Below are positions 1 to 3,767 of a DNA stretch of 64,000 nucleotides, one piece after another. Below the pieces are notes generated by a model that worked only from the letters and a program-made list of their open reading frames with translations, was not told the origin of the DNA and did no database searches. The DNA comes from Pseudomonas triticicola (GTDB lineage Bacteria; Pseudomonadota; Gammaproteobacteria; Pseudomonadales; Pseudomonadaceae). The first letter of the stretch is position 1. Every line of letters starts with the position of its first letter. Position numbers and translations under genes: made by a program. The stretch lies in NCBI RefSeq assembly GCF_019145375.1, contig NZ_JAHSTX010000002.1:686001-750000 (forward strand), written 5' to 3'.

Positions 1-61
1 TGCTCTGAAGCACACGCGTACCCGGCGCCCGGTGGCCATCGCTGTCCCCAACGGATTGTAA
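1..61 (+). CDS. 3' end of an upstream gene (partial, unknown)
   Basis: The first 61 bases read as an open frame (codons starting at base 2) that ends at TAA 59-61, giving a tail rich in Arg and Val and ending VAIAVPNGL. The stop lies 24 bases before the glutamine-kinase-like start, so the two genes could be in one operon. Too little remains to name a family. In Campylobacter the matching P-N cluster also has a CDP-amidate kinase and transferases, but nothing here shows that this tail belongs to one of them. Confidence 0.4.
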   Translation, partial: ALKHTRTRRPVAIAVPNGL

Positions 62-85: not shown

Positions 86-2446
86 ATGCAGTCGATGACT
101 TTAGCCAGTCCCTTCGAGTTTTCCGGTAAGGCCGGAACGCTGGAAAGCCTTGCCCCGTTTCTGAAAACCGGCCGGGTGCTGCCATTGCACCGGTTCACTG
201 TTGCCAATTGGCGCAACAAGCCGCAGGCGATTCTGGATTACTGCGCTCGGCGCTTTGCCGATCAGCCGATGATCGTGCGGTCGAGCAGTCTCACCGAAGA
301 CCAGGACGGCACGTCTGGCGCCGGCATGTATGACTCGATTGGCAACGTGCGTGGGGTAGCGGCGCTGAAGCAGGCCATTGAACAGGTGATTGCTTCCTAC
401 GGAGAGGCCCGGGACTTCGACGAAGTGCTGATTCAGAGCATGGCCACCGGCGTGCTGGCCTCCGGGGTAGCGATGACGCGTGATCCGGAAACCGGCCTGC
501 CGTATTACGTCGTCGATTATGTTCCCGGCGAGGGCACTGACGGCGTCACGGCCGGGACCGGCACCGTGCATTCGTTTGTCGCCATCAAGTCGCAATGTGG
601 CGTAGAACCTGCGGCACTCAAAGGTTTGTTTGCATTGCTCGCTGAAGTCGAGGAACTGACCGAGCGCGATGCGCTGGACATCGAATTTGCCATCACTGCC
701 GAGGGACCGTTGTTGTTCCAGGTGCGCCCGATGACCGGCGCCGGTGTTGAAAATATCGACACCCAAGCCGATTCAGCCTTGCGTGCGGTGCTCGACAGCG
801 AAGTGGTGTTGCTTGAAGGCCTGGCGCGCAAGACTCGTCAGCCCGAGCTTGGCTTGAATGCCTTTCTGGGCTTGATGCCGGACTGGAATCCGGCCGAGAT
901 GATCGGTGTCAAACCAAGGCCGCTGGCCTATTCGCTGTACAAGGAATTGATCACCGATGTGAACTGGGCTTCGGCGCGGTTCCGTTATGGCTACCGTGAC
1001 ATGCGCAACAAACCGCTGATGTATCAGTTCAGCGGCTCACCGTACATTTGCATTCCCTACAGCGTCGAGTCGTTCATTCCGGCGACGTTGCCGCTGTCGA
1101 TCGTCAACTCGGTGGTCAGCCACTGCTCTGAACACCTGGCAGCCCATCAGTCGCTGCATGACAAGATCGAGTTTTCCATCATCCCCACATGCTTTACCCC
1201 GCAACTGGCAGCGACACCGATCGAATCGATACCAGCGTTCAAGGGTTTGAACGCCACGCAGTGCGAGCTCTATCTGGGGGAATTGAGAAACGTCACCGAA
1301 CACATTATCAGCGCCGACGGTCCGTTTTTCTCGGACCTGACCCGACTGCCGCGCATCGAGCAGAAAGCCGAACGGCTCGATCGCTACCATGAAAATGACG
1401 ATCCGCTCCAGCGCCTGCGCCACGCGCTGGCGGACGCCAAGGTTGTCGGCGAAGTGTTTTCCGGCGTCGCGCGGGCGGCCTTCGTTGCCACCGCAGTGAT
1501 CAAATCACTGGAAACCCAGCAGCGAATCCCGACGGGTTTCACCGACTGGATGATTGGCGGGGTAAACACCGTCGGCCGCAAGATGGCCGATGATTTCCGC
1601 ATCCTTCACAAAGAAGCGTTCCTGCGTCTGCACGGCCATGTACGGCCAGGCACCTACGATGTGCGCGTGGCCCGCTACGACGAAAGCCCTGACGCTTATT
1701 TCGACTGGAACACCCCGTTGCAACGCGCTCACCGTGATGATGGGCCAAGGGTGATCAGCCGGGACATCCGTCAAGCCGTGCAACAGGCGTTCGACGAGTG
1801 CCAGTTCCGTGTGTCGGCGGAGCAGTTCTTCAAGTTTCTCGACGCTGCTGTCGCGGCCCGGGAAAAGGTCAAATACCTCTACGGAGCATTCGTCTCGCAG
1901 GCACTCAAGGCGCTGGCCGGGTGGGGTCAACAGCATCAACTGAGCCTTGATGAACTGAGTTTCGCCAAGCTGAGCGATTTCATCGGCAATCCGGAAGAGA
2001 TCCGTCTGGAAACGGTGCGCGACAAGATCGCCAGCAACCGCGCGCGCTGGCAATTGACTCAGGGTATCCGTACCCCGGTGATCGTCTGCAAGCCGCAGGA
2101 CCTGCTGTCCCATGCAATCGAGTCGTGTAATCCGAACTTCATCACCCGCAGTGCCACAGAAGCGCCGGTCGCGGTGCTGCGGGCAGAGGAAACCAGCAAG
2201 CGCGATATCGAAGGCTGCATCGTCCTGATCGAGAATGCCGACCCCGGCTTCGACTGGATTTTCACCCACCGGATCGCCGGTTTCATCACCGCCTACGGCG
2301 GGGAAAACTCGCACATGTCGATCCGCGCCCGGGAGTTCGCCATTCCTGCCGCCATCGGCGTCGGTGACGTCAAGTTCCGCATTCTGCTGTCGAGTTCGCG
2401 GCTGATTCTCGACTGTGCCGAGCGACGCATCCAGGTGCTGTCGTGA
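86..2446 (+). CDS. Glutamine kinase-like enzyme (ATP-grasp/PEP-utiliser fold)
   Basis: The protein is about 786 residues. The N-terminal third is a PPDK/PEP-synthase type ATP-binding domain (VRSSSLTEDQDGTSGAGMYDSI near residues 67-88, and FQVRPMTG near 210). The C-terminus is a swivelling phosphohistidine domain with GGENSHMSIRARE, the His being about residue 743. Length, domain order and neighbours fit Campylobacter Cj1418, which uses ATP to phosphorylate the amide nitrogen of L-glutamine (known for that family; inferred here). ATG 86 is preferred over ATG 74 because GGAAG lies 5 bases before it. The next gene overlaps by 4 bases. A generic PEP-utilising enzyme of other specificity is the alternative. 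Confidence 0.7.
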   Translation: MQSMTLASPFEFSGKAGTLESLAPFLKTGRVLPLHRFTVANWRNKPQAILDYCARRFADQPMIVRSSSLTEDQDGTSGAGMYDSIGNVRGVAALKQAIEQVIASYGEARDFDEVLIQSMATGVLASGVAMTRDPETGLPYYVVDYVPGEGTDGVTAGTGTVHSFVAIKSQCGVEPAALKGLFALLAEVEELTERDALDIEFAITAEGPLLFQVRPMTGAGVENIDTQADSALRAVLDSEVVLLEGLARKTRQPELGLNAFLGLMPDWNPAEMIGVKPRPLAYSLYKELITDVNWASARFRYGYRDMRNKPLMYQFSGSPYICIPYSVESFIPATLPLSIVNSVVSHCSEHLAAHQSLHDKIEFSIIPTCFTPQLAATPIESIPAFKGLNATQCELYLGELRNVTEHIISADGPFFSDLTRLPRIEQKAERLDRYHENDDPLQRLRHALADAKVVGEVFSGVARAAFVATAVIKSLETQQRIPTGFTDWMIGGVNTVGRKMADDFRILHKEAFLRLHGHVRPGTYDVRVARYDESPDAYFDWNTPLQRAHRDDGPRVISRDIRQAVQQAFDECQFRVSAEQFFKFLDAAVAAREKVKYLYGAFVSQALKALAGWGQQHQLSLDELSFAKLSDFIGNPEEIRLETVRDKIASNRARWQLTQGIRTPVIVCKPQDLLSHAIESCNPNFITRSATEAPVAVLRAEETSKRDIEGCIVLIENADPGFDWIFTHRIAGFITAYGGENSHMSIRAREFAIPAAIGVGDVKFRILLSSSRLILDCAERRIQVLS

Positions 2447-3045
2447 CGTTGATTGCCGTGACCATGCTGCGCCTGTTCGACGCCTCGCGTGATGAATGGC
2501 GCGATGCGATTGATCAACGCTGGGCGAAGTTTCTCGCGCATTGCGCGCTACTGCCGTTGTACCTGCCGAACGATCCGCAGGTCAGTCAAGAGTTGCTGGA
2601 ACGCCTGCAACCGGAAGGTGTGCTGTTGACCGGCGGTGGCAGTTGTCAGGCCCTGTCGGGCAGCGTTGATTGCCGGGATCAAACCGAAGCGATGTTGCTT
2701 GCATGGGCGCAACACAAGCAGTTGCCGGTACTCGGTGTGTGCCGCGGCATGCAAGTCATGCTGGCCGCTGCCGGGGGCATGCTGGAACGGGTTGCCGGCC
2801 ATGTCGGCAGCCACGAAATCACATTTCGCGGTGTGAATCGGCGGGTCAATTCATTCCACGATTACGGTTTTTTGTCCGTAACGGCAGGCTACGAAATCGA
2901 GGCGCTGAGCGCGGACGGAGTGATCGAAGCGGTCAGCCATCCGGGCAAGCGCCATAGCGCAGTGATGTGGCACCCCGAACGTAATCCCCATTTTGACGAT
3001 GCCGACATATCCCTGGTGCGGCAGGTTTTTGGAGTTTCACCATGA
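2443..3045 (+). CDS. Class I glutamine amidotransferase-like hydrolase (gamma-glutamyl-CDP-amidate hydrolase-like)
   Basis: This 200-residue protein has the peptidase C26/class I GATase fold: a nucleophile elbow GVCRGMQ with Cys100, and MWHPERNP with His177 and Glu179 completing the triad. It starts on GTG overlapping the preceding stop (GTGA), so translation is coupled. In C. jejuni the enzyme at this position (Cj1417) removes glutamate from gamma-glutamyl-CDP-amidate to free cytidine diphosphoramidate. The same role is inferred from family and order. A gamma-glutamyl-GABA hydrolase (PuuD-like) would share the motifs, but puu neighbours are absent. Confidence 0.72.
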   Translation: MTLIAVTMLRLFDASRDEWRDAIDQRWAKFLAHCALLPLYLPNDPQVSQELLERLQPEGVLLTGGGSCQALSGSVDCRDQTEAMLLAWAQHKQLPVLGVCRGMQVMLAAAGGMLERVAGHVGSHEITFRGVNRRVNSFHDYGFLSVTAGYEIEALSADGVIEAVSHPGKRHSAVMWHPERNPHFDDADISLVRQVFGVSP

Positions 3046-3767
3046 AGGCAATCATTCTCGCTGCGGGACGTGGCAGCCGCCTGGGATCGCTCACCGATCA
3101 GCGTCCCAAGGCTTTGGTCGAGTTCAACCAGACCCCGTTGATCGAGCGCACCGTGCGCACTTTGCGTGCCGCTGGCATCAGTGAAATCGGGATAGTCGCC
3201 GGTTATCGCAGCGAAATGCTTGCGCCGTATGCCGATCGACTGTTCATCAACCCACTGTGGAGCACTACGGGTATTCGCCAATCGCTGAGCGCGGCGCAGG
3301 AATGGCTCGAGTCGCAACCGTGCGTGGTCAGCTACGGCGATATCTTTTATTCACCGTCGCTGGTGCGCGACCTGATGCACAAGGACGAGGATATCGACCT
3401 CGGATACGACCCGCAGGCCGTCAAATTGTGGCAGCAGCGATTCGACAATCCGCTGGAGGATATGGAACGCTTCGTCATCGATAACGGACGTATTTGCCAG
3501 ATCGGTCATCGTGCCGAGTCGCTGGAGCAGATTCAGGGCCAATACATGGGCTTGTTCAAACTCACCCCCGCCGGCTGGCAGGCGCTGAGTGCGCAATTGG
3601 CCGGGCTGACTGCCGAGCAGCGCGATCAGGTCGATATGACCTCACTGTTTTCGCGGGCGATCGAAGCAGGCGTGCGCGTTGCCGGGACACCGACACTGGC
3701 GCCGTGGGGCGAAATCGATTGCCCGTCCGATGTGCAGTTGTACCAGCGGATTTATCCACAGCTGTGA
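3042..3767 (+). CDS. Sugar-nucleotidyltransferase fold cytidylyltransferase (phosphoglutamine cytidylyltransferase-like)
   Basis: A 241-residue NTP-transferase with the N-terminal nucleotide loop LAAGRGSRLGSLTDQRPKAL, a metal-binding SYGDI segment near residue 101, and the usual C-terminal GEIDCPSDVQLYQ. It resembles LicC/AEP-type CTP transferases. It overlaps the amidotransferase by ATGA and is last in the operon, just before a strong terminator. By synteny with Cj1418-Cj1417-Cj1416 it should join CTP to phosphoglutamine (inference). A choline-phosphate or other cytidylyltransferase remains possible. Confidence 0.7.
   Translation: MKAIILAAGRGSRLGSLTDQRPKALVEFNQTPLIERTVRTLRAAGISEIGIVAGYRSEMLAPYADRLFINPLWSTTGIRQSLSAAQEWLESQPCVVSYGDIFYSPSLVRDLMHKDEDIDLGYDPQAVKLWQQRFDNPLEDMERFVIDNGRICQIGHRAESLEQIQGQYMGLFKLTPAGWQALSAQLAGLTAEQRDQVDMTSLFSRAIEAGVRVAGTPTLAPWGEIDCPSDVQLYQRIYPQL

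Follow-up and report, generated by a model that had tools for sequence, protein, structure and literature searches.

A Pseudomonas operon linking a predicted cytidine diphosphoramidate pathway to a phosphatidylserine synthase-like enzyme

Introduction

What does a pseudomonad do with a set of enzymes known from the capsule of Campylobacter jejuni? The question is raised by a stretch of 64,000 nucleotides of Pseudomonas triticicola (assembly GCF_019145375.1, contig NZ_JAHSTX010000002.1, G000:C2:686001-750000), here called the window, which begins with three consecutive genes, P1, P2 and P3. The original prediction read them as a phosphoramidate cassette that serves either a surface polysaccharide or a natural product with a phosphorus–nitrogen (P–N) bond. 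Our comparison of sequences extends the locus upstream to six genes, and we consider it somewhat probable that this operon serves to produce a small phosphoramidate metabolite and release it from the cell, a P–NH2 group being transferred, in this reading, to a small alcohol with serine as the likeliest acceptor. While the triad is known from the Campylobacter capsule, its apparent coupling to a cytidine diphosphate (CDP)-alcohol phosphotransferase, an ATP-grasp ligase and a major facilitator superfamily (MFS) transporter is new.

In C. jejuni, the consecutive genes Cj1418-Cj1417-Cj1416 encode, as we take it, a glutamine kinase, a gamma-glutamyl-CDP-amidate hydrolase and a phosphoglutamine cytidylyltransferase, in this order. 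The steps that follow the kinase are cytidylylation and deglutamylation. The route to the MeOPN group of the capsule further involves a Cj1415-type CDP-amidate kinase and, within a capsule cluster, MeOPN transferases of the Cj1421/Cj1422 type. Glutamine kinase itself has been reported from C. jejuni (PMC6429109, PMC10971088), and a review terms this enzyme specific to that species (PMC9561416).

Results

The P1–P2–P3 triad

P1 (86..2446, + strand, 786 amino acids) is a glutamine-kinase-type enzyme with a PPDK_N domain and a PEP-utilizers swivel domain. A start at 74 is possible; 86 is preferred because 786 amino acids is the length of most close relatives. P2 (2443..3045, + strand) is a class I amidotransferase-like protein of the gamma-glutamyl-CDP-amidate hydrolase type, whose GTG start overlaps the P1 stop, and P3 (3042..3767, + strand) is a nucleotidyltransferase of the NTP-transferase fold, a putative phosphoglutamine cytidylyltransferase. 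Each junction is an overlap of 4 bases, and the reading frames, the strand and the coupling are as originally described.

The best NCBIfam model for P1 is NF004508/PRK05849, with 782 bits against a cut-off of 501, while the phosphoenolpyruvate (PEP) synthase models give at most 43 bits; a 52% relative, P0029, carries the source name 'glutamine kinase'. For P2 the best model is NF045546, named for gamma-glutamyl-CDP-amidate hydrolase activity, with 92 bits (cut-off 250), and the PuuD model gives 44 bits. The same model is also the best for P2 in nine of nine other loci scanned (78–129 bits, all below 250), some of them beside a gene resembling adenosine 5'-phosphosulfate (APS) kinase. Since its score lies under the curated cut-off, we file P2 as an enzyme of this type and not as a member of the NF045546 equivalog. 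P3 matches the NTP-transferase family, and its best solved relative is the CTP:phosphocholine cytidylyltransferase 1jyk (49 bits). PEP synthase or PPDK as the family of P1 and PuuD as that of P2 were rejected, being outscored by PRK05849 and NF045546, respectively; best matches to those families were what would have counted against the original prediction, and this outcome did not arise.

The catalytic residues originally claimed for all three proteins stand at positions that are 100% identical in our alignments. In P1 these are H743, E200, Q212 and R214 (91 rows), which we take to be the phosphohistidine of the swivel domain and the ATP-binding residues; in P2, C100, H177 and E179 (87 rows), presumably the catalytic Cys-His-Glu; and in P3, G9, G11, R13, K23, D100 and D226 (82 rows), to which we likewise assign catalytic roles by assumption. 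Judged by family models, the triad resembles Cj1418-Cj1417-Cj1416 in having like enzyme types in consecutive genes. The scores support the proposed glutamine-kinase, gamma-glutamyl-CDP-amidate-hydrolase and nucleotidyltransferase types and, with them, the predicted synthesis of CDP-amidate.

A recurring six-gene unit

Upstream of P1 and co-directional with it lie three further genes in the surrounding fragment L007 (G000:C2:670001-689999; L007 position equals window position plus 16000), in the order MFS–CDP-alcohol phosphotransferase–ATP-grasp ligase–P1–P2–P3. The MFS transporter gene (L007:12798-14030, + strand) and the CDP-alcohol phosphotransferase gene (L007:14063-14680, + strand) lie wholly upstream of window base 1, and the last codons of the ligase gene (L007:14698-16008, + strand) occupy window 1..8. 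The gaps to the next gene are 32, 17 and 77 bases, respectively. Compared with the related locus L110, the genes are under purifying selection, with ratios of nonsynonymous to synonymous change (pN/pS) of 0.105 for P1, 0.27 for P2, 0.24 for the CDP-alcohol phosphotransferase and 0.066 for the ligase.

We kept 80 named relatives of the 454 found and searched them for the upstream proteins by tblastn. The full six-gene set is present in Pseudomonas sp. 8O (L028), P. endophytica (L029) and Pseudomonas sp. UBA6562 (L030), whose P1 proteins are 86%, 80% and 55% identical to that of the window and whose flanks differ, and in L108 and L110. Counting the window genome, six pseudomonads thus carry the unit, and in three of the other five its flanks differ. 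Because it is complete in L028–L030 among other neighbours, we regard the six genes as the smallest recurring unit. The window-type loci number eight (L007, L028, L029, L030 and L108–L111), six of them distinct, as L109 repeats L028 and L111 repeats L030. An anti-phage defence role was considered and dropped, the six proteins having given no PADLOC match.

Two kinds of P1 locus

The order P1-P2-P3 is found in 70 of the 80 named loci, from many phyla; three have another order and seven are incomplete. In the Patescibacteria-type loci L055, L081 and L095 the order is P1-P3-P2. An APS-kinase-like match, counted anywhere in the fetched stretch and not necessarily adjacent, is present in 68 of the 91 loci examined, which corresponds to 62 of the 77 non-window named loci; nine of the 15 named loci that lack it are contigs of less than 10 kb. 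We assume that this gene has the role of Cj1415. None of the eight window-type loci contains such a match. In a quick P1 tree of 106 rows (duplicates and fragments left out; branches assessed by SH-aLRT, with no bootstrap), a single branch with an SH-aLRT of 99 separates the 68 APS-kinase rows from 15 rows assigned to the CDP-alcohol phosphotransferase. Another 23 rows belong to neither group, and 13 of them fall on the CDP side, including L035 and L052, within reach of which no CDP homologue was found. L035, L063 and L052 have P1 relatives with P2 and P3 unmatched in the stretch searched.

The same division is seen within the genus. The PRK05849 cut-off is passed by 36 of 398 Pseudomonas genomes, five of the window type at 772–782 bits and 31 at 890–1025 bits. 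The CDP-alcohol phosphotransferase subfamily (E <=1e-30) is found in exactly the five window-type genomes and in none of the other 393, and all six 20-kb surroundings fetched as a sample from the 31 higher-scoring genomes contain an APS-kinase-like match. The original view that such chemistry is little described in pseudomonads needs to be divided accordingly: P1-type kinases are not rare in the genus, while 31 of the 36 genomes that encode one lack the CDP-alcohol phosphotransferase subfamily. Among plasmids, 14 records have P1 relatives at E <=1e-30, all below 60% identity.

Two observations on other loci stand apart from these counts. Six of the 91 loci (L114, L054, L067, L068, L069 and L085) are pseudomonad triads with an APS-kinase-like gene near flagellin, which suggests phosphoramidate on flagellin glycans there. 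L144, on a Cupriavidus taiwanensis plasmid, has a P1 relative near nifK, beside a thiamine pyrophosphate enzyme and an aminotransferase.

The CDP-alcohol phosphotransferase

The CDP-alcohol phosphotransferase matches PF01066 with 59 bits (cut-off 22) and keeps the motif DxxDGxxAR(x8-12)GxxxDxxxD in 21 of 21 rows of its subfamily. Its closest kin is phosphatidylserine synthase (PSS), and its best solved relative uses CDP-diacylglycerol. The counterparts of the PSS serine-site residues D62, S63, D66 and F105 and of R101 are conserved in 21 of 21 rows, with S80 in 20 of 21; of the 22 control rows used for comparison, L122 and L130 were left out. The window-type enzymes differ from MjPSS (7b1k/7pow) in having an invariant GLPTTY (21 of 21 rows) in place of GLPIPA, in having lost PSS R104 and in being tied to a P–N operon; for them we predict CDP-amidate rather than a lipid as the donor. 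Arg72 and the 12-residue loop were tried as marks unique to a CDP-amidate donor and rejected, as both also occur in the CDP-alcohol transferases L123, L132, L135 and L137.

In a class-wide sample of 369 genomes, the protein of the window genome scores 328 bits and those of the 46 other matching genomes at most 100. Matches occur in 29 plasmid records, all below 60% identity, and the annotated ones among the 20 listed are pssA. Two PEP-synthase-like proteins are encoded at L145:8132-14027 (G430) beside a CDP-alcohol phosphotransferase whose motif reads GLPVTY. This top-scoring outsider was rejected as a further example, since the P1 match there is weak and P2 and P3 have no match.

A proposed pathway and its difficulties

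By family and by analogy with the Campylobacter pathway, P1 would phosphorylate the amide nitrogen of L-glutamine, P3 would use CTP to form gamma-glutamyl-CDP-amidate, and P2 would strip off glutamate to leave cytidine diphosphoramidate (CDP-NH2). The new step is the fourth, in which the PSS-like membrane enzyme would move P(O)(O-)NH2 from CDP-amidate to a small alcohol with release of CMP, in place of the 3'-phosphorylation by a Cj1415-type kinase. CMP-releasing transfer to an alcohol is the standard reaction of the CDP-alcohol phosphotransferase superfamily, and it is the donor that would be new. Serine would be the most likely acceptor, giving O-phosphoramidoyl-L-serine. The ATP-grasp ligase would then join this product to another amino acid as a peptide mask before the MFS protein carries it out of the cell. 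That the product is a peptide is plausible because the best solved relative of the ligase is the L-amino acid ligase BL00235 (3vot, 46 bits; BacD gives 24 bits), although its similarity to these dipeptide ligases is low.

O-phosphoramidoyl-serine has P–NH2 and P–O where phosphinothricin has P–CH3 and P–CH2. That the product is this compound or a close amino-alcohol ester, shipped as a peptide, and that it acts as a phosphinothricin isostere, an antimetabolite of glutamine metabolism with masking and export, is a tentative proposal, which we hold to be possible but on balance doubtful.

Several observations weigh against this pathway. The CDP-alcohol phosphotransferase lies below all serine-synthase NCBIfam cut-offs (98.6/200, 91.2/240, 84.1/107 and 73.9/200 bits), a hydrophobic residue replaces PSS R104, and the 12-residue loop before GxxxDxxxD occurs beyond the subfamily. 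D79 and D83 are part of what CDP-alcohol transferases have in common as their motif, so that the case for serine comes down to S80, F122 and overall similarity. CDP-amidate as the donor, the acceptor and the substrates of the ligase are all inferred, and we found no biochemistry for any of the operon proteins. The P2 score falls short of its cut-off, and among the 15 rows of the P1 tree assigned to the CDP group the gene is directly seen in 6, the other 9 being labelled indirectly. Finally, unlike BL00235 and BacD, the operon-type ligase also occurs alone with an MFS gene: G345, the one genome besides the five window-type Pseudomonas genomes to match the ligase at E <=1e-60, has only these two genes (L156:8160-10841; MFS 75% and ligase 86% identical), with neither the triad nor the CDP gene found within 20 kb. 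The MFS and ATP-grasp proteins may therefore serve resistance or another job. G345 seems to hold either an orphan resistance pair or the remains of a locus that has decayed, and in the operon the ligase and the exporter may have a protective role, the product being capped and then exported.

The neighbouring cluster and alternative readings

Upstream of the unit, past an opposite-strand regulator, lies a second small-molecule cluster (L007:1556-10861), which contains MFS, ATP-grasp, RidA, cupin, GST, KamA-like radical SAM, aminotransferase, TauD-like, AurF-like and metallo-hydrolase genes. In some of these gene types it is reminiscent of the P. syringae Pbo cluster. The two clusters are adjacent in the window genome, and members of the second also adjoin the unit in L108 and L110, so that a larger product made jointly by both can be envisaged; phaseolotoxin production in P. 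syringae is likewise reported to depend on a cluster that holds KamA-like, ATP-grasp and MFS genes (PMC8473136). We nevertheless rate a joint product as unlikely. The stretches fetched for L028–L030 extend some 6.6 to 6.8 kb beyond the MFS gene on its upstream side and contain no member of the second cluster, for which reason we rejected it as part of the unit. The ATP-grasp proteins of the two clusters, moreover, have little in common (22%).

A P–N lipid is less probable still. Here the phosphoramidate would be placed on a lipid alcohol, or CDP-diacylglycerol would be used with a head group that contains P–N, as a membrane enzyme whose best solved relative uses this lipid might lead one to expect. 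Yet the serine-site residues are kept, genes for an amino-acid-ligase-type protein and an MFS transporter adjoin in eight of eight window-type loci, and the genome holds three other CDP-alcohol phosphotransferases.

We give the same low probability to the reading without P–N chemistry, in which P1 would be an ordinary enzyme of the PEP-synthase type, or else another phosphotransferase, and the function of the triad would be unrelated. The generic domains that are all Pfam shows, and the P2 score below its cut-off, would suit it; the wide margin of PRK05849 over the PEP synthase models, the consistent choice of NF045546 for P2 across loci and the widespread order of the triad do not.

Least probable of all is decoration of a surface polysaccharide as in Campylobacter, with the kinase and the transferases encoded elsewhere: the same triad does occur in loci with an APS-kinase-like gene, and unmethylated phosphoramidate has been reported on Xanthomonas and Shewanella lipopolysaccharides (PMC3907429), but the unit has its own CDP-type transferase and MFS gene in all eight window-type loci (6 distinct), the flanking genes scanned include no glycosyltransferase family (some neighbours were unscanned, and 3 of 10 in one scan matched nothing), and the Cj1415-like kinase sought upstream is absent from the operon, the sole APS-kinase domain of the genome lying on another contig, contig 1, in a 651-amino-acid frame that is CysNC-like by size. 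The six-gene context fits and supports a P–N natural product, one of the two destinations originally offered, and lends no support to the other.

Discussion

The proposed P–N metabolite departs from the systems that it most recalls. The operon differs from the C. jejuni locus in lacking a Cj1415-type kinase and, in the flanks scanned, capsule genes, and in adding the CDP-alcohol phosphotransferase, the ligase and the MFS gene to the triad. Phosphinothricin, in bialaphos, is a C–P compound of another pathway, while P–N and P–O bonds are predicted here; the predicted product would be isosteric with it and the predicted peptide masking analogous. Phaseolotoxin of P. syringae is likewise a pseudomonad peptide with P–N bonds, but it carries a sulfodiaminophosphinyl group on ornithine, unlike the predicted product. 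Its Pht cluster presumably includes a dikinase-like gene. The Pbo paper mentions neither 'dikinase' nor 'phosphatidyl' in its main text, and none of the open-licence papers that we searched connects a CDP-alcohol phosphotransferase or a phosphatidyltransferase with either phosphinothricin or phosphoramidate.

The triad spans many phyla, and in one of its clades the transfer would follow another logic. If our reading is correct, the operon would add a pathway by which a nucleotide phosphoramidate is turned into small P–N natural products, and a lipid-head-group enzyme would have been repurposed in it for a soluble donor. The P1 clade together with the CDP-alcohol phosphotransferase subfamily would provide a handle for genome mining, and the specific class of compounds predicted could be sought by 31P nuclear magnetic resonance. 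In that case, such pseudomonads would produce a bacterial metabolite of a new kind, similar to the weedkiller phosphinothricin.

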